A DNA stretch of 64,000 nt from Phaeacidiphilus oryzae TH49 (GTDB lineage Bacteria; Actinomycetota; Actinomycetes; Streptomycetales; Streptomycetaceae). The position numbers and the translations under genes were made by a program. Below are positions 4,321-13,402 of this stretch, in pieces. The notes under the pieces were generated by a model. The model was not told the origin of the DNA. It saw only the letters and a program-made list of their open reading frames with translations, and ran no database searches. The DNA is taken from the NCBI RefSeq assembly GCF_000744815.1, contig NZ_JQMQ01000005.1:1806055-1870054 (forward strand), in the 5' to 3' direction. The stretch's first letter is position 1. Every line of letters begins with the position of its first letter.

Positions 4321-5847
4321 TCAGATGTGGAGCACCCCGTCCACCCGCCGCGGCAGCCCCGCCACGCCCGCGTCCCGCAGCTCGACCGGCAGCAGCGCCT
4401 CCGGCGCGTTCTGGAACGCCACCGGCCGCACCCACCGCTCGATCGCCGTGGCCCCCACCGAGGTGGAGGTGGAGGTGGAGGACGGGTAGGGCCCACCGTG
4501 GTTCATCCCCGCCGCCACCGCGACGCCGGTCGGCCAGCCGCCGAACAGCACCCGTCCGGCGACCCCGGCCAGCCGCTCCAGCAGCTCCCGCGCCGCCGGC
4601 TCGTCCGCCTCCGCGTGGAGGGTGGCGGTCAGGTTCCCGCCGACGGCGGCCAGCACCCGCTCGACCTCCGCCGCGTCCTCGTACCGCACGATCACGGTCA
4701 CCGGCCCGAAGCACTCCTCAAGGAGCGCCGACCCGTCGCCCACGTCCGCCGCCGCGACCCGCAGGTACCCCGGCCGCACGGCCAGCGGCACCCCGTCGAC
4801 GCCGTCGTCCGCGCCGGCCTCGACCGCGACCGAGACGCCCGCCAGCTCCGCCCGTTCGGCGAACCCGGCCAGGAAGGCCTCCCGCATCCGCGGGTCGAGC
4901 AGCGCGCCGGACGCGGCCTCGCCGGCCGCGGCCGCCAGCGCGGCCTCCACCTCGTCGCCGGCCGGCCCGGCCGGCACCAGCACCAGTCCGGGCTTGGTGC
5001 AGAACTGGCCCATCCCCAGGGTGAAGGACCCGGCGAGCCCGGTTCCGATCTCCTTGGCCCGCGCCGAGGCCGCGGCCTCCGTCACCACGACCGGGTTGAG
5101 CGAGCCCAGCTCGCCGTAGAACGGGATCGGCTGCTCCCTGCTCACCGCCAGGTCGAAGAGGAACCGCCCGCCGGCCACCGACCCGGTGAACCCGACCCCG
5201 GCGATCTCCGGATGCCGCACCAGGTCCACGCCGGCCTGCCGGCCGTGCACGACCACCAGCACGTCCTCGTCGAGGCCGGACGCCACCGCCGCCCGCCGGA
5301 TCGCCGCTCCGGTGAGCTCGCTCGTCGCCGGGTGGTCGGGGTGCGCCTTGGCGACCACCGGGCACCCGGCGGCCAGCGCGCTCGCGGTGTCCCCGCCGGA
5401 GACGCTGAACGCGAGGGGGAAGTTGCTGGCCGCGAAGACCGCGACGACGCCCAGCGGCGTCTTCCACCGCCGCAGGTCCGGCCGCGGCACCGGCTTGGCC
5501 TGCGGGTCCGCGTGATCGATGATCACGTCCAGGTACGCGCCCTCGTCGACGACGTCCGCGAAGGCCCGGAACTGGTAGGCGGTACGGGCCAGTTCACCGG
5601 TCAGCCGGGGCACCCCGAGGGCGCTCTCCCGGTCGGCGGCGGCGATGATCCGCTCGCCGTCGGACTCCAGCTCGGCCGCCACCGCGCGGAGGAACTCGGC
5701 ACGGCGGGCCCGGTCTGCCAGACTCTGCCGCGTGCCGGCCGCCGCGCGTACGGCGCGGTCCACGTCCGCGCCGGTCGCCTCGACGGTGACCTGCTCGATC
5801 TGCTCCCCGGTGCGCGGGTCCACACTCCACACTGGGACCGTGTTCAC
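4321..5847 (-). CDS. Aldehyde dehydrogenase, 2-oxoglutarate-semialdehyde dehydrogenase type
   Basis: An NAD(P)-dependent aldehyde dehydrogenase of about 508 residues. The substrate-anchoring Asn is in ASNFP, the general base Glu in PFYGELGSLNPV and the catalytic Cys in GQFCTKPG. This combination (FYGELGSLNP, GQFCTKPG) is typical of the 2-oxoglutarate semialdehyde dehydrogenase group, which finishes the oxidative uronate, aldarate and pentose routes by making 2-oxoglutarate. The GTG at 5847 has a good ribosome binding site (GGCGGAG). An upstream ATG at 5889 has none and lies inside the GTTCAG repeats, so 5847 is preferred. The gene is divergent from the IclR gene, and kdgD at 8815-9849 would supply its substrate. 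The cofactor is not certain. Confidence 0.9.
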   Translation of the reverse strand: MNTVPVWSVDPRTGEQIEQVTVEATGADVDRAVRAAAGTRQSLADRARRAEFLRAVAAELESDGERIIAAADRESALGVPRLTGELARTAYQFRAFADVVDEGAYLDVIIDHADPQAKPVPRPDLRRWKTPLGVVAVFAASNFPLAFSVSGGDTASALAAGCPVVAKAHPDHPATSELTGAAIRRAAVASGLDEDVLVVVHGRQAGVDLVRHPEIAGVGFTGSVAGGRFLFDLAVSREQPIPFYGELGSLNPVVVTEAAASARAKEIGTGLAGSFTLGMGQFCTKPGLVLVPAGPAGDEVEAALAAAAGEAASGALLDPRMREAFLAGFAERAELAGVSVAVEAGADDGVDGVPLAVRPGYLRVAAADVGDGSALLEECFGPVTVIVRYEDAAEVERVLAAVGGNLTATLHAEADEPAARELLERLAGVAGRVLFGGWPTGVAVAAGMNHGGPYPSSTSTSTSVGATAIERWVRPVAFQNAPEALLPVELRDAGVAGLPRRVDGVLHI

Positions 5848-5880
5848 AGCTTGCTCCGCCCTCTGTCGCAGTGGTCGACT

Positions 5881-5931
5881 CTGTTCCATATACTGAACGC
5901 GATCTACAATCCTGAACGTCCATTCTGAACA
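5881..5931. promoter_or_regulatory. Divergent promoter with three GTTCAG/CTGAAC repeats
   Basis: Three CTGAAC copies lie at 5893, 5912 and 5925 (plus strand), and an inverted GTTC half at 5883 pairs with the first. A near-identical element, ATATACCTGAACGCG, lies before kdgD at 9881 and a weaker one (ACATACATGAACTGCG) before udh at about 9985. The position between an IclR gene and its likely target suggests an IclR operator. This is inferred, not proven. Confidence 0.55.
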
Positions 5932-5960: not shown

Positions 5961-6737
5961 ATGGCGCTGCCGACCGCCGCCGCCGGCGGCTCCCAGGTCA
6001 AGTCCGCCGTCCGCACAGTGGAACTGCTCGAGTTCTTCGCCGGACGTCCCGGCATCCACACCCTGGCCGAGGTGCAGACAGCCGTCGGCTACCCCAAGTC
6101 CAGTCTCTACATGCTGCTGCGCACCCTCGTCGAGCTCGGCTGGGTGGAGACCGACGCCACCGGCACCCGCTACGGCATCGGCGTCCGCGCACTCCTCGTC
6201 GGCACCTCCTACATCGACGGCGACGCCGTGGTCGCGGCCGCCCGACCCATTCTGGACCGCCTGGCCGAGGAGACCACCGAGACCATCCACCTCGCCCGCC
6301 TGGACGGCACCAACGTCGTCTACCTGGCGACCCGCCAGTCGCAGCACTACCTGCGCCCCTTCACCCGGGTCGGCCGGCGGCTCCCGGCGCACTCCACCAG
6401 CCTCGGCAAGGCCCTGCTCGCCACCCACACCGACGACCAGGTCCGCGCCCTCCTCCCGGAGAAGCTGGAGGCCCTCACCGAGCACACCACCACCGACCGC
6501 GAGGAGCTGATCAAGCAGCTCGCGGTCATCCGCGAGCGCGGCTACGCCGTCGACGCCGAGGAGAACACCGTCGGCCTCCGCTGCTTCGGCGTGGCCATCC
6601 CCTACCGCACCCCCGCCCGCGACGCCATCAGCTGCTCCGTCCCGGTGGCCCGCCTCACCCCCGAACACGAGGCCACCGTCCGCACCGCCCTCCTCAACGC
6701 CCGCGACCCCCTTTTGATGACCACTCGTCATCTCTGA
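5961..6737 (+). CDS. IclR family transcriptional regulator
   Basis: A 258-residue regulator. The N-terminal winged helix-turn-helix spans residues of about 15-75 (VELLEFFAGRPG, then the YPKSSLYMLLRTL recognition helix). The C-terminal effector domain starts near residue 90 and carries typical IclR features: HSTSLGKALLA, the ERGYAVDAEENTVGLRC segment and a late CSVPVARL strand. The ATG at 5961 follows a strong ribosome binding site (GAAAGAAGGGG). It is divergent from the semialdehyde dehydrogenase gene with repeated GTTCAG elements between them. It is probably the local repressor or activator of the uronate/aldarate genes, with a sugar acid or 2-keto acid as the likely effector; this is inference from context. 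Confidence 0.92.
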   Translation: MALPTAAAGGSQVKSAVRTVELLEFFAGRPGIHTLAEVQTAVGYPKSSLYMLLRTLVELGWVETDATGTRYGIGVRALLVGTSYIDGDAVVAAARPILDRLAEETTETIHLARLDGTNVVYLATRQSQHYLRPFTRVGRRLPAHSTSLGKALLATHTDDQVRALLPEKLEALTEHTTTDREELIKQLAVIRERGYAVDAEENTVGLRCFGVAIPYRTPARDAISCSVPVARLTPEHEATVRTALLNARDPLLMTTRHL

Positions 6738-7574: not shown

Positions 7575-8810
7575 TCAGCGGCCGGGCGCGGAACCGGAAT
7601 CGGAAGCGGAATCGGAACCGGCCTGCAGCGCCTCGCGGACGAGGGCGAGGTCCGCCTCCCCCGCCAACCCCGCGTGGTACAGCCGCAGCTCCGTCGCGCC
7701 TGCGGCCTGCGCCGCCCGCAGGTCCGCCGCGAGCCGCTCCGGCGCGCCGCCCATCCCCCGGACCACCGTGAAGTTGGCGGCGAGCGAGGCGCCCTCGGGG
7801 GCCTTCGCCGCGGCGCCCGTCAGGGCTTCGAGGCCGCCCGCGCAGGGCAGGACCAGGCCGTCCGCGCCGCCGCCTTCGGCGGAGAGCAGCCATTCCGGTT
7901 CGACGCCGGCGTTGGCACCCGTCCGCCAAGGCAGCGGGTCGGCGTGCAGCCGTACGGCGAAACCGCCGGGCGTCGCCGCCCGCACCGCCGAGACCGCGGC
8001 CGACTGCAACTCCCGTGCCACCTCCAGTCGGTGACGGAGGGTCAGCTCGGCGTCCCCGGCGCCGAGCAGCCGCTCGACGTCCGCCCACTCGCCGTCGCCG
8101 CCCGCCCGCCACTCGCCGGACCACACCACCGCCAGCGCGTCCCGCACCCGCCGGGCCAGCGCCGCCGGCTCGGCGCCGAGCACCGCGTACCCGGCCCCGC
8201 AGGACTCGCAGAAGCACAGCGACATCGCGTACGCCGCGGCGCCGTCCAGCGGCACCCCGCCGATCTTGTCGTGGGCGTGGAGATGGGCGAGGCCGTACCA
8301 GCCGCAGGACTCCAGCTCGACCCCGGTCGCCCCGGGCCGGGCCGCGGCCTCCGCCGCCAGGTCGACGAGGTACTCCCGCACCTCCGGCCGGCCGATGCAC
8401 GGCGCCCAGCCGTACCGGTCCCCGTACGCGTTGCGCACCACCGAGGACGGATGCTCGGCCCCCAGCCGGGAGTTGTGCGCCAGCACCACCCAGGCGTGGA
8501 CGTCCAGCCCCGCGCCCCGCAGCGCCTCGGCGGCCGCCCCGAAGGCGTCGGGACCGCCGGAGCCCGCCCACTCCCCCGCCGGATACGGCCGCAGCGCCCG
8601 CCCGCGCCAGCGCGCCTCCTCCACCGGGTAGTAGACGGCGGCGTGCTCGGCGACCACGATCCGGTGCCGCGGATGACGCGGTGTCAGCGCGCGGGTCGAG
8701 TGATAGGACGAGGCCAGGGTGACGCCGTCCACGCCCAGCCCGGCGATCCGCTCGGCCGCCTCCGGGTCGCCGATGACGTCCCAGGGATAGACGAAGGCCT
8801 GACTCCGCAT
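7575..8810 (-). CDS. Uncharacterised protein, possible TIM-barrel glycosidase-like enzyme
   Basis: A 411-residue protein I do not recognise by name. It starts MRSQAFVYPWDVIGDPE, and phrases such as GVDGVTLASSYHS, LDVHAWVVLAHN and TGVELESCGWYG have the rhythm of beta/alpha-barrel strands. The Trp, Tyr and acidic residues at strand ends, a CFCESCG segment and the YGWAPCIGRPEVREYL segment recall putative glycoside hydrolases of the family-10-like type; this is a weak resemblance. It lacks a signal peptide. The ATG at 8810 has the ribosome binding site GGGGTGAG and follows the kdgD stop by four bases, so it is in one operon with kdgD. A GTG at 8822 is an alternative. A role in uronate or aldarate metabolism is inferred from context only. 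Confidence 0.75.
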   Translation of the reverse strand: MRSQAFVYPWDVIGDPEAAERIAGLGVDGVTLASSYHSTRALTPRHPRHRIVVAEHAAVYYPVEEARWRGRALRPYPAGEWAGSGGPDAFGAAAEALRGAGLDVHAWVVLAHNSRLGAEHPSSVVRNAYGDRYGWAPCIGRPEVREYLVDLAAEAAARPGATGVELESCGWYGLAHLHAHDKIGGVPLDGAAAYAMSLCFCESCGAGYAVLGAEPAALARRVRDALAVVWSGEWRAGGDGEWADVERLLGAGDAELTLRHRLEVARELQSAAVSAVRAATPGGFAVRLHADPLPWRTGANAGVEPEWLLSAEGGGADGLVLPCAGGLEALTGAAAKAPEGASLAANFTVVRGMGGAPERLAADLRAAQAAGATELRLYHAGLAGEADLALVREALQAGSDSASDSGSAPGR

Positions 8811-8814
8811 CGGC

Positions 8815-9849
<1,035 letters not shown>

Positions 9850-10061: not shown

Positions 10062-10895
10062 ATGAGCCCAGCGCCCGCAGCCCCCCGGACCGTCCTCCTC
10101 ACCGGCGCAGCCGGCGGCGTCGGCAGCTTCCTCCGCGCCTCGCTGCCCGCCGAGTACGGCTACGATCTCCGGCTCTTCGACCAGGCCCCGATCGAGGGCG
10201 AGCCGGAGGCGATCACCGCCCCGCTCTCCGACACCGCCGCCCTCCGCAAGGCCGCGGAGGGCGTGGACGCCATCGTCCACCTGGCCGGGATCTCGGTGGA
10301 GGCCCCCTTCGCGGACATCCTCGGCGCCAACATCGAGGGCACCTACAACCTCTACAAGGCCGCCCGCGCGGCCGGCGTCCGCCGGGTCGTCTTCGCCAGC
10401 TCCAACCACGCCGTCGGCTTCACCGAGCGCCCCGAGGGCGCCCCGGAGAGCGGCGCCACGGTCCCGGTCGAGACCCGCCTGCGCCCGGACACCTACTACG
10501 GCCTGTCCAAGTGCTTCGGCGAGAACCTCGCCTCCCTCTACGCGGACAAGCACGGCATCGAGACCGTCTCCATCCGGATCGGATCCTGCTTCGCCAAGCC
10601 GCGCACTGTGCGGATGCTGGACACCTGGCTGAGCCCGGCCGACTGCCACCGGCTGATCCACGCCTCGATCACCGCCGAGCTGCCCGCGCACAGCCACGGC
10701 CACCACGTGGTCTACGGCATCTCGGCGAACACCCGCGCCTGGTGGTCGTTGGACTCGGCCCGGGAGATCGGCTTCGAGCCGCAGGACGACTCCGAGGTCT
10801 TCGCCGCTGAGGTCATCGCCGAGCTGGGCGAACTCACCCCGGAGGACCCCGAGTACCGCTACTTCGGCGGCGCCTTCACCCAGCAGCAGGTCTAG
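10062..10895 (+). CDS. udh: Uronate dehydrogenase (NAD-dependent epimerase/dehydratase family)
   Basis: A 277-residue extended short-chain dehydrogenase. The Rossmann motif LTGAAGGVG lies at residues 13-21 and the catalytic Y146-x3-K150 in TYYGLSK. Other marks shared with uronate dehydrogenases are HLAGISVEAPF, FASSNHAVGF and IRIGSCFAKP. The reaction oxidises D-galacturonate or D-glucuronate with NAD+ to the aldaro-lactone, entering the route that continues through KdgD. The frame is open from 9945, but the ATG at 10062 with CAGGAGAGG upstream fits the family's N-terminus. It is divergent from kdgD. The product could in principle be another sugar dehydrogenase, but the motif set is specific. 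Confidence 0.88.
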   Translation: MSPAPAAPRTVLLTGAAGGVGSFLRASLPAEYGYDLRLFDQAPIEGEPEAITAPLSDTAALRKAAEGVDAIVHLAGISVEAPFADILGANIEGTYNLYKAARAAGVRRVVFASSNHAVGFTERPEGAPESGATVPVETRLRPDTYYGLSKCFGENLASLYADKHGIETVSIRIGSCFAKPRTVRMLDTWLSPADCHRLIHASITAELPAHSHGHHVVYGISANTRAWWSLDSAREIGFEPQDDSEVFAAEVIAELGELTPEDPEYRYFGGAFTQQQV

Positions 10896-10988: not shown

Positions 10989-11968
10989 CTACCGCGCGAC
11001 CGGGTTCGCCAGCGGCCGGCCCGCCGCCCACCGCCGCACCTGCTCCACCACCAGCCGCTCGGCCCGCGGCCTGAACGCCGCCGATCCTCCCCCGACATGC
11101 GGGGTGACCAGCACGTTCGGCAGCCCCCGCAGCTCGTGCCCGGCGGGCAGCGGCTCCGGGTCCGTGACGTCAAGCGCCGCCCGCAACCGCCCGGCGCGCA
11201 CCTCCGCCAGCAGCGCCCCGGTGTCCAGCGTCCGCCCCCGCCCGACGTTCACCACCAGCGCCCCGTCCGGCAGCGCGGCCAGCTCCGCCGCCCCAGCAGC
11301 CCCACCGTGGACGGGTTCTCGGGCAGCACCAGCACGGCGATGTCCACCTCGGGGAGCAGCCGCGGCAGCTCCGCCACCGGGTGGACGTCCTCGGCCGGCC
11401 GCGCCCGGCGCGCGATCCGCAACACCTCCGCCTCGCAGGCCAGCAGCCGCCGCTCCAGCGCCGCCCCGATCGAGCCGTAGCCGATCACCGCCACCCGGGA
11501 GTCCGCCAGCGAGCGGGTGAAGTGCGGCTCCCAGCGGCCCGCGTCCTGGTCCCGCACCCAGCGCGGGAGGTCCCGCTGGGCGGCCAGGATCAGCCCGAGG
11601 GCGTGCTCCGCGGTGCTCGCGTCGTGCAGCCCCCGCCCGTTGTGGAGGGCGACGCCCTCGGGCAGCAGCGGCTGGAGCTTCTCCACCCCGGCGCTCAGCG
11701 ACATCACCGCCCGCAGCCCGGTGAGCCGCGGCAGCAGCCGCTCCGCCCCCGGGGTGGCGTACGGCATCACCCACAGGCCGATCCGCGCGAGATCCGTGCC
11801 GTCCAGCCCCACCGGCTCGCCGTCCCCGCCCCGGCTGCCGTCCCACACCCGGACGCCGACCCCGCTCGGCCACGGCCCGTGCGCCTTCTCCAGCCCCTCC
11901 CAGGGGACGAGGACATCCGGCGCCGACGAGGCACCGGCCTGCTCAGCCGAAGAGTCCGCAGCGACCAC
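10989..11968 (-). pseudogene. D-2-hydroxyacid dehydrogenase, frameshifted
   Basis: Two overlapping frames together make one NAD-dependent 2-hydroxyacid dehydrogenase of about 326 residues. The upstream frame (from 11968) gives the catalytic-domain N-terminus, the SAGVEKLQPL and TAEHALGLILA segments and the nucleotide motif VIGYGSIGAALE. The downstream frame (to 10989) gives VVNVGRGRTLD with the catalytic Arg, the Glu in DVTDPEPLP and the His in VTPHVGGG. The frames meet at the CCCC run 11291-11294 (plus strand), where one extra C would join STVGLLG directly to AAELAALPDG. It is either a real pseudogene or a base-call error. The gene is divergent from the MFS permease, so it may act on an imported hydroxy or keto acid. 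Confidence 0.85.
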
Positions 11969-12076: not shown

Positions 12077-13402
12077 ATGACAGCGGCGTCCCCCCATACC
12101 CGCACCGGCTTCTGGTCCTCGACCCGCGCCAGGCACATGATCCCGATCGCGTTCGTCACCTACTCCCTGGCCTATCTGGACAAGTCCAACTACTCGATCG
12201 GCTCGGCCGGCGGGATGGCCCAGGACCTCCACATGTCCAGCGGCACGAACGCCCTCGCCGCCGCCTCCTTCTTCCTGGGCTACTTCCTCTTCCAGATCCC
12301 CGGCACGGTGTACGCGGAGCGCCGCAGCGCCCGCCGGCTGGTCGCCTGGTCCACGGTGGTCTGGGGCGTGCTGGCGATGGTGCAGGGCCTGCTGGACAGC
12401 GCCGCCCTGCTGATCGCCGCCCGCTTCCTGCTCGGCGTGGTGGAGGGCGCGGTGCTGCCCTCGATGGTGATGCTGCTCAGCCGCTGGTTCACGCGGCGCG
12501 AGCGGGGCCGCGCCAACACCTTCCTGATCCTCGGCAACCCGGTCACCGTGATGTGGCTGTCCGCCGTCTCCGGCCTCCTCGTCCAGGCCACCGACTGGCG
12601 GACGATGTTCGTGGTCGAGGGCCTGCCCGCGGTGGTCTGGGGCCTGTGCTGCCTGAAACTGATCAAGGACCACCCGGAGGAGGCCGGCTGGCTCCCCGCC
12701 GAGGAGCGGGCGAGCCTCACCACCGATCTCGCCGCCGAGCAGCGGACCCAGCAGCCCCCGACCGGCGCCGCGGCCTACCGCCGGGTGCTCACCTCCCGGC
12801 TGGTGCTGGTCCTCGCCGTCCAGTACTTCTGCTGGTCGATCGGCGTCTACGGCTTCGTCTTCTGGCTGCCGTCGATCATCAAGCAGGCCTCCGGCGAGGG
12901 CATCGGCGCCACCGGCCTCCTCTCCGCCGTCCCCTACCTCTTCGCGGCGCTCGCGATGCTGGTCAACTCCCAGCTCTCGGACCGCCGCGGGCGCCGCCGC
13001 ACGGCGGTCTGGCCCTGGCTCACGGTGGCCGCCCTCGCCCTCTACGGCTCGTACCTCGCCGAGGGCGCCTTCGCCCTCTCCTTCATCCTGCTGATCGTCG
13101 CCGGCCTCTGCCTGTACGCGCCCTACGGCCCGTACTTCGCCCTGGTCTCCGACCAGGCGCCGAAGAACGTCTCCGGCGCGGCGGTGGCCCTGGTCAACTC
13201 CTTCGGCGCACTGGGCTCCTTCACCGGCACCTACCTGGTGGGCTGGGTGCGCGGCAGCTCGCTCGGCGACGCGGGCGCCTTCGGGCTGATGGCCGCCGGC
13301 ACCCTGGTCTCGGCGGCCCTGATCGCGCTGGTCCGGGAGCGGCCCGCGGCCCCGGTGCCCGCCGGGGAGGAGGCCCGCGAACCGACCGCCCGCCCCGCGT
13401 AG
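12077..13402 (+). CDS. MFS transporter, anion:cation symporter type
   Basis: A 441-residue permease with about 12 transmembrane helices and a large hydrophilic loop near residues 195-225. N-terminal features such as TYSLAYLDKSNYS, FFLGYFLFQIPG and ARFLLGVVEGAVLPS match the ACS branch of the major facilitator superfamily, which imports glucarate, galactonate, hexuronates and other organic anions with protons. The ATG at 12077 lies eight bases after AGGAGG; the frame also has a GTG at 12068 inside that site. It is flanked by the uronate genes and an IclR regulator, so a sugar acid or related hydroxy acid is the likely cargo. The exact substrate cannot be read. Confidence 0.9.
   Translation: MTAASPHTRTGFWSSTRARHMIPIAFVTYSLAYLDKSNYSIGSAGGMAQDLHMSSGTNALAAASFFLGYFLFQIPGTVYAERRSARRLVAWSTVVWGVLAMVQGLLDSAALLIAARFLLGVVEGAVLPSMVMLLSRWFTRRERGRANTFLILGNPVTVMWLSAVSGLLVQATDWRTMFVVEGLPAVVWGLCCLKLIKDHPEEAGWLPAEERASLTTDLAAEQRTQQPPTGAAAYRRVLTSRLVLVLAVQYFCWSIGVYGFVFWLPSIIKQASGEGIGATGLLSAVPYLFAALAMLVNSQLSDRRGRRRTAVWPWLTVAALALYGSYLAEGAFALSFILLIVAGLCLYAPYGPYFALVSDQAPKNVSGAAVALVNSFGALGSFTGTYLVGWVRGSSLGDAGAFGLMAAGTLVSAALIALVRERPAAPVPAGEEAREPTARPA

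Follow-up and report, generated by a model that had tools for sequence, protein, structure and literature searches.

The product of uronate dehydrogenase is a 1,5-lactone, and in some other bacteria UxuL and UxuF open the galactaro- and glucaro-1,5-lactones formed after this enzyme (PMC6353982, in excerpt). Agrobacterium bypasses lactone opening via Gli and Gci, and Gli belongs to the Amidohydrolase superfamily, going by a title cited in the same article (PMC6353982, in excerpt). GlcNAc1A likewise first exists as a 1,5-lactone, and sugar 1,5-lactones also open spontaneously in a pH-dependent manner, as described for GlcNAc1A (PMC12017989, in excerpt). Given this spontaneous opening and the Agrobacterium bypass, a lactonase is not obligatory. 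The N-acetylglucosaminate (ong) pathway, with a gene set known from marine bacteria, comprises OngB, OngC, the RidA protein OngD and KdgK (PMC9537276, in excerpt).

On the structural side, the closest described protein is Cwp19, a lytic transglycosylase of Clostridioides difficile. In this enzyme Asp196 was singled out as the probably catalytic residue, Asp195 lies mostly buried, and Gly328 takes the place of the Glu that PgaB and GH42 enzymes carry on strand 7 (PMC5765458, in excerpt).

Here we describe a gene of Phaeacidiphilus oryzae TH49. The window analysed is a stretch of 64,000 nucleotides (contig NZ_JQMQ01000005.1, positions 1,806,055 to 1,870,054); the features of the locus and of the protein under study, hereafter the target, are collected in Table 1.

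Table 1. Features of the uronate locus and of the target protein (window coordinates)
Feature	Position	Strand	Basis
Target, 411 aa, GHL10/GH42-like (beta/alpha)8 barrel, proposed aldarolactonase	7575..8810	-	ORF, predicted model, structural matches
kdgD, 5-dehydro-4-deoxyglucarate dehydratase, directly upstream of target, same strand	8815..9849	-	Pfam and NCBIfam
Uronate dehydrogenase, divergent	10062..10895	+	Best PDB matches are uronate dehydrogenases
Aldehyde dehydrogenase, probable alpha-ketoglutarate semialdehyde dehydrogenase	4321..5889	-	Assigned by context
IclR-family regulator	5961..6737	+	Pfam
MFS transporter, closest model D-galactonate transporter	12077..13402	+	TIGR00893; cluster membership inferred
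Residues 163-168 (GVELES), C-terminal end of barrel strand 4	8307..8324	-	Model and 51-row alignment
His37, just behind strand 2	8700..8702	-	51/51 rows
His112, just behind strand 3	8475..8477	-	49/51 rows
Cys138	8397..8399	-	51/51 rows
C199-F-C201-E-S-C204 (CxCxxC)	8199..8216	-	51-row alignment

The target gene and its neighbours

The target gene runs on the minus strand from the ATG at 8808-8810 to the stop codon at 7575-7577; a spacer of four bases (8811-8814) separates it from the stop codon of kdgD (8815-8817). These ORF coordinates bear out the preliminary description of a 411-residue protein four bases behind kdgD. A plus-strand reading of 7575-8810 gave a translation senseless as protein and was dropped. 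In a search of genome contigs, 269 of 300 candidate stretches encoded a relative, and on comparison their starts mostly align at a common [VML]-[KR]-x-x-x-F-[VL]-Y-P-W-D motif, indicating that the reading frame is not a product of chance. The 80 best of the 269 relatives, with 60-67% identity, were retained. The target is single-copy in the window genome.

The upstream gene product matches PF00701 at 3.9e-52 and NF002958 with 402 bits (above the cut-off of 278); its score against the stricter KdgD equivalog TIGR03249 is 304.6, under the cut-off of 374. The uronate dehydrogenases 6mfh (2.2e-68) and 3rft (4.9e-56) are the best PDB matches of the divergent gene. The aldehyde dehydrogenase (ALDH) matches many ALDH models, that for alpha-ketoglutarate semialdehyde dehydrogenase being one of them, with every one among the matches listed below cut-off, and the MFS transporter scores 260.9 bits with TIGR00893, below the cut-off of 395. 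A close relative of the IclR regulator is found in the fetched flanks of 21 of the 80 loci. A glucarate-dehydratase candidate is encoded elsewhere in the window genome (C5:3710806) and is 61% identical to the dehydratase next to a distant relative of the target (locus L142, see below), so that all other pathway steps have a candidate gene. For lactone opening, no other candidate was found among the annotated cluster genes.

Beyond the uronate dehydrogenase, a D-2-hydroxyacid dehydrogenase (10989-11968, minus strand) is apparently split across two frames: ORF 11249-11968 holds its NAD-binding part (PF02826) and the C-terminal part seems to run on in the frame of ORF 10989-11873, which looks like a frameshift in the gene or in the sequence.

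Family status and distribution

The target protein has no match among Pfam or NCBIfam models at E<=1. This agrees with the preliminary description, which could name no family for it and considered a new enzyme family possible; the target family indeed lies outside Pfam and NCBIfam. By a single-protein search, close and distant members are present in 119 of 150 sampled Streptomycetaceae genomes, with about 57-71% identity in the close group and about 50, 43 and 35% in the distant groups. With a profile of 68 rows, members were found in 228 of 293 genomes of the order, in at least 44 of 296 genomes of the class (a lower bound, at most six candidates having been scored per genome) and in 12 of 296 genomes of the phylum, of which one is the window genome and six belong to its taxonomic family. 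A "no match" in the class search is unreliable, since locus L206 carries the target in spite of a target-negative call.

The 68-row alignment comprises the window protein and 67 of the 80 loci; those left out are L009, L022, L061 and L064, in which a stop was read through on extension, and L005, L023, L027, L028, L031-L033, L035 and L041, mostly near-copies. Residue counts and the tree are based on 51 of 54 rows, L142, L105 and L154 being excluded.

Predicted fold and remote kinship

An AlphaFold2 model of the target, built from 68 sequences, is a confident (beta/alpha)8 barrel (pLDDT 91.1, pTM 0.90), in which strands 2-7, 29-36, 103-109, 163-167, 285-289, 318-322, 342-348 and 374-378 were taken as the eight barrel strands. 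The best PDB matches found with Foldseek were Cwp19 (4.8e-9), the Paenibacillus alpha-L-fucosidase 6tvk (which we take to be a GH151 enzyme), GH42 enzymes and PgaB. A second aligner, in whose list neighbouring ranks are tied or nearly tied, gave Cwp19 5oq2 (Z 24.4, rmsd 3.3, 292 aligned, 13% identity), 6tvk (Z 23.4, rmsd 3.4, 302 aligned), PgaB (Z 23.1, rmsd 3.6, 310 aligned) and the GH42 enzyme 5xb7 (Z 22.4, rmsd 3.0, 301 aligned). The look of a beta/alpha-barrel sugar enzyme noted from the sequence is thus supported by the predicted structure and by its structural matches to sugar enzymes. The shared barrel fold says nothing on function.

At the sequence level, hhalign of 29 relatives against 19 actinobacterial GHL10 sequences gave 97.2% with E 8.7e-11 (one comparison) over 310 columns, and the GHL10 model PF02638 was matched by 4 of the 29 relatives (best E 2.3e-5); the window protein itself has no PF02638 match at E<=1. 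These comparisons support a remote kinship of the target family with GHL10. Against the PDB, phmmer of the window protein retrieved Cwp19 alone (E 0.12), the 68-row profile gave no useful match and the 29-row profile gave Cwp19 at 0.028, ranked after a designed repeat protein at 0.025; these weak matches served as a lead that was afterwards tested by fold comparison and hhalign. DUF4838 was matched by 11 of the 68 members (best 0.062), was absent among the 12 families listed for the broader 29 rows and was set aside. SMP-30/gluconolactonase enzymes are beta-propellers, whereas the target model is a TIM barrel, and the window protein has no Pfam match at E<=1 to this family (PF08450) or to amidohydrolases.

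The target shares with Cwp19, its best structural match, and with GHL10 the (beta/alpha)8 barrel in the predicted model, and with Cwp19 also the lack of a strand-7 Glu (PMC5765458, in excerpt). It differs from GHL10 in its CxCxxC cysteines and in operons shared with sugar-acid enzymes, as well as in the strand-4 motif: DG[VL]HFDD[YF] was found by pattern in 11 of 19 GHL10 rows, whereas the target strand ends in E followed by S/A/G. It resembles GH42 5xb7 and fucosidase 6tvk in barrel fold, and its cysteines are arranged (C...(N)E...CxCxxC) as in the Cys-Zn cluster known from Gal42, a cluster that is not present in all GH42 enzymes (PMC8573354, in excerpt). Unlike GH42, the target has neither the Asn-Glu pair nor the strand-7 Glu, and is 411 residues long as opposed to about 640-700 for the GH42 chains among the matches listed.

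Conserved residues

Cys138, Cys199, Cys201 and Cys204 are each conserved in 51/51 rows and probably hold a structural zinc. Residue 167 is Glu in 50 rows and Asp in one; Glu165 is Glu in just 17/51. Other conserved positions are Tyr36 (50), Trp107 (50) and Tyr378 (48) and, in a loop, His176 (48), His180 (48) and Asp/Glu at 181 (49 of 51 rows).

The invariant Glu167 aligns one residue ahead of the usual strand-4 acid/base position, which is residue 168 and is Ser in 40, Ala in nine and Gly in two of the 51 rows. The correspondence of Glu167 with Cwp19 Asp195 and of residue 168 with Asp196 is based on a HMMER alignment and on an alignment made by eye without gaps between VR (144-145) and GV (163-164); hhalign placed a gap inside the strand-4 motif. 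In this mapping an Asp at the Cwp19 Asp196 position is absent from all 51 rows. At positions 343-352, which cover strand 7 and the stretch just behind it, Asp or Glu occurs in at most 2/51 rows each. Catalytic carboxylates at strands 4 and 7, which had been suggested as a feature to look for, are therefore not borne out, and judging from the alignment the family has lost the standard glycosidase dyad. Position 353, which follows strand 7 at a distance of five residues, holds Asp in 10/10 rows of clade V (see below), in 16/19 "other" rows and in 0/22 rows of the uronate setting. This Asp might be a second carboxylate in the clades outside that setting and counts against a lactonase, although the odds of that reading stay the same, since the setting of the window protein is not touched.

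Uronate loci (context A)

Among the 80 Streptomycetaceae loci, a uronate dehydrogenase gene lies upstream on the other strand in 77 and a close same-strand kdgD in 71, both being present in 69. These counts support the coupling to kdgD that had been read from the window. Eight loci retain the dehydrogenase and the target but have no close kdgD, in L022 dehydrogenase and kdgD are both missing, and two loci without the dehydrogenase (L002 and L078) are at contig ends. The target flanks of 19 of the 80 loci (L002-L081) contain a further kdgD/DapA-like gene, which is distant from kdgD (<40% identity).

The same setting, here called context A, is kept by distant relatives: within four genes of the target, 15 such loci have kdgD (14), uronate dehydrogenase (14), an enolase-superfamily dehydratase (11), IclR (10), ALDH (7) and an ABC permease (5). 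The ends of kdgD and target overlap by four bases in L101, L102 and L104-L107. In 10 of 42 distant loci counted (a neighbour count that excludes L136-L138), the target shares 1-7 bases with an overlapping gene of the enolase superfamily that is glucarate-dehydratase-like; these are L108, L109, L139-L144, L150 and L154. The gene order in L142 is kdgD, dehydratase, target, ALDH, sugar-porter MFS, talarate/galactarate dehydratase and MFS, the first dehydratase being nearest to probable glucarate dehydratases (3vdg, 1.1e-157) and scoring 238 bits with TIGR03247, under the cut-off of 829.

A different arrangement was observed in genome G112, in which the target (L180) lies away from the uronate dehydrogenase and next to an IlvD/EDD dehydratase, a DapA-like aldolase, an FCD regulator and ABC permeases; in L179 of the same genome kdgD and uronate dehydrogenase are still together, with an SSF carrier.

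N-acetylglucosaminate-type loci (context B) and other relatives

In a second setting, context B, relatives in L136, L138, L147-149, L151-153 and L155-157 are surrounded by ong-type genes for an OngB-like deacetylase, an OngC-like deaminase and Rid, although not every gene is present in every locus. L149 has the order SDR, target, OngB-like deacetylase, with ends overlapping by 4 bases; this deacetylase matches PpOngB at 1.2e-41 and, more strongly, a D-aminoacylase at 1.8e-64. L152 encodes a D-serine-deaminase-type PLP enzyme (OngC-like), and L148 contains Rid together with KDG-kinase-like and KDPG-aldolase genes. In L155, L156 and L157 an SDR gene is directly upstream of the target; those of L155 and L157 score above the cut-off set for PRK07231, a "glucose 1-dehydrogenase" subfamily model, with which the SDR of L149 scores 171 bits (below the cut-off of 215). 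L157 also has an SSF carrier. Two of these loci are from small genomes of moderate GC (locus GC 0.52): L136, with OngC-like, Rid and OngB-like genes ahead of the target, and L138, where the target has two SDRs and a gene of aminoacylase type as neighbours. Within four genes, the 17 loci classed as "other" have an SDR in nine, any of the dehydrogenases in 10, Rid in eight, an OngC-like gene in seven and an OngB-like gene in five; five ong-type loci (L147, L148, L151-153) showed no sugar dehydrogenase over that distance.

These loci resemble the ong pathway in the OngB-, OngC- and OngD(Rid)-like genes beside the relatives (PpOngB being PDB 9kb1), in the KDG kinase of L148 and in the SSF carrier of L157. 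The marine cluster differs in that OngA, compared with GH20, is named and a target-like protein is not, as far as the excerpt of the article goes (PMC9537276). Ong-like N-acetylglucosaminate gene sets were seen in actinobacteria in L136, L147-L149, L151-L153, L155-L157, L206, L216 and L217.

In the tree (51 rows), context A forms one side of a branch with SH-aLRT 96; context B is in the other half (26 rows), not as one clade, and clade V is among those rows. As contexts A and B lie in opposite halves of the tree, the link to sugar oxidation looks old. Clade V (L111-L120) comprises ten Streptomycetaceae genomes, six of genus g14 and four of g3, with about 35% identity; its members keep the core residues, lie near a conserved VapB-like gene and are distant from sugar genes, with an SDR within four genes in 1/10 loci and the other counted gene kinds in none. 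Relatives in L158 and L159 are located between creatininase-family and metallo-beta-lactamase-fold genes, with a Gfo/Idh/MocA dehydrogenase and ABC genes, a setting in which a third substrate is possible.

Clusters without the target

For the uronate cluster, 20 loci around uronate-dehydrogenase-like genes were examined, 18 from genomes without a target match in the class search plus one each from G532 and G112, which have targets elsewhere in the genome. A dehydrogenase was called in 19 (not in L175), and in 16 of these no kdgD or enolase label was found within six genes; part of these dehydrogenases may be other SDRs, such as the glucose-6-phosphate dehydrogenase Azf, a model matched below cut-off in the NCBIfam search. 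An SMP-30 gene is beside the dehydrogenase solely in L168 and L174, apparently in another sugar's pathway, and SMP-30 presence (33 of 39 genomes) fails to separate target-bearing from target-less genomes. L173 of genome G605 is a full uronate cluster without the target. The target was absent from G605, G023, G043, G075, G063, G435, G565, G494, G590 and G567 in a search that scored all or nearly all candidates and had no positive control.

For the ong cluster, 10 loci were taken that were target-negative in the class search or, for G642, had a weak partial match. L206 is the one found to carry the target; L207-L215 were rejected as ong clusters, as no Rid, OngB-like gene or target was found in them.

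Proposed function

Based on this evidence, it can be proposed that the target represents a new cytoplasmic family of aldaro/aldonolactonases on a glycosidase-like barrel of the GHL10/GH42 type, a reading to which we give an even chance. From what was computed (predicted fold, GHL10 kinship, gene context, conserved residues and dyad loss) we infer a lactone substrate, residue roles and the zinc. Uronate dehydrogenase would oxidise D-glucuronate or D-galacturonate to the 1,5-aldarolactone, which the target would open to glucarate or galactarate; the enolase-superfamily glucarate dehydratase encoded elsewhere in the genome would then form 5-dehydro-4-deoxyglucarate, and KdgD would convert it to 2,5-dioxopentanoate, to be passed to the aldehyde dehydrogenase. 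Glu167 would act as general base for water, aided by His112, His37 and the H176/H180-[DE]181 loop. The C1 of a sugar lactone is flattened, like the C1 that glycosidases stabilise in the transition state, so that a glycosidase-type pocket could bind such a lactone. The target is not known to share a protein family with UxuL, which is an SMP-30-type propeller, or with UxuF. Its likeness to the two lies in the proposed step and substrate (PMC6353982, in excerpt).

Lactone opening is favoured because contexts A and B both pair C1 oxidation, which gives a 1,5-lactone, with enzymes that use the open acid. A lactone-yielding dehydrogenase accompanies the target in 77/80 close loci and, within four genes, in 14/15 distant context-A loci, and elsewhere a sugar-type dehydrogenase is found within four genes in 10/17 "other" and 1/10 clade-V loci. 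The loss of the glycosidase residues, as read from the alignment, fits a lactonase. Of the functions suggested in the preliminary description, lactone opening thus agrees better with the data than release of uronate from glycosides, given the 1,5-lactone-to-acid logic shared by the two contexts and the lost residues; uronate release is less supported, with S/A/G at the acid/base position in 51/51 rows and no conserved carboxylate on strand 7. The SMP-30 lactonase genes beside related dehydrogenases in the target-less clusters L168 and L174 are suggestive only: both have an FAA-hydrolase-like gene and L168 also an enolase-superfamily gene, and the two clusters probably serve another sugar, so that SMP-30 does not strictly replace the target within one pathway. 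Against a lactonase stands G605, in which kdgD, dehydratase, IclR and uronate dehydrogenase are together with no target at E<=1e-5 among all 92 candidates scored; the two unlabelled neighbour genes checked there encode a SIS-domain protein and a lactate permease. Clade V and those context-B loci in which no dehydrogenase was seen nearby also count against it. We know of no lactonase on this fold, and a search of open-access literature found, among the matches listed, neither such a lactonase nor such a Streptomyces family.

The kinship with glycosidases also admits an intracellular glycosidase with a non-standard catalytic set, which would free uronate, glucarate or N-acetylglucosaminate from imported disaccharides and take the part of OngA in context B. 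The closest folds are glycosidases and the glycoside hydrolase domain of Cwp19, which likewise has no strand-7 Glu, and the Asp present behind strand 7 in 26/29 of the rows that do not belong to context A could stand in; relatives in L103, L108-L110, L140, L143, L144, L152, L158 and L159 have sugar-type ABC permease genes no more than four genes away, the ong cluster of a marine bacterium includes the glycosidase OngA (PMC9537276, in excerpt), and a route from C6/C1-oxidised cellulose to glucuronate and saccharic acid exists (PMC6391835, in excerpt). However, the residues at the acid/base position and on strand 7 speak against it, as do the carriers: the compared genes of L142 include two carriers of MFS type but none from the two ABC-permease clusters, and the symporter of L157 is of the SSF class, to which OngIT, the carrier of monomeric GlcNAc1A, belongs (PMC9537276, in excerpt). 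A glycosidase also explains less well why target and dehydrogenase remain paired after loss of kdgD in 8/80 loci, and we consider it rather unlikely.

Another candidate role is that of an isomerase, either of lactones (1,5- to 1,4-lactone, like Gli, which in Agrobacterium acts right behind Udh; PMC6353982, in excerpt) or of sugars, as an epimerase/mutarotase that would act on the uronate ahead of its oxidation, and several invariant His/Glu residues could perform the acid-base chemistry. Yet the neighbouring dehydratase is nearest to glucarate dehydratases, users of the open acid that a 1,4-lactone would not feed, and the next gene in L149 encodes an OngB-like deacetylase, which makes this reading highly doubtful. 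Some other role in the pathway is unlikely in our view, be it that of a further dehydratase of sugar acids, of a metal-dependent hydrolase acting on some unrecognised conjugate, or of a barrel with a regulatory or non-catalytic task. Such a role would accommodate clade V, without metabolic neighbours of the counted kinds save one SDR, and the G112 target with its IlvD/EDD dehydratase, DapA-like aldolase and FCD regulator; against it, most distant context-A clusters already have a dehydratase (enolase type, 11/15), and the nearly invariant polar residues at the predicted strand ends argue for catalysis.

Concluding remarks

Taking the lactonase reading to both contexts, we tentatively suggest, at somewhat below even probability, that loss of both catalytic carboxylates turned a glycosidase barrel into a lactonase, which became a widespread actinobacterial family serving the oxidation of uronates and of N-acetylglucosamine. 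As part of this suggestion, the N-acetylglucosamine arm would run from dehydrogenase through lactonase, deacetylase and deaminase to KDG, also in actinobacteria with small genomes of moderate GC.

The target family is widespread in Streptomycetaceae and its member in the window carries no Pfam or NCBIfam name. If the target is a lactonase, it would supply a step that is still unassigned in the oxidative utilisation of uronates by Streptomyces, provide a new enzyme for producing glucaric and galactaric acids and show a glycosidase fold changing its reaction. If true, the joint reading would moreover predict an LPMO-independent route from N-acetylglucosamine to KDG in other actinobacteria.
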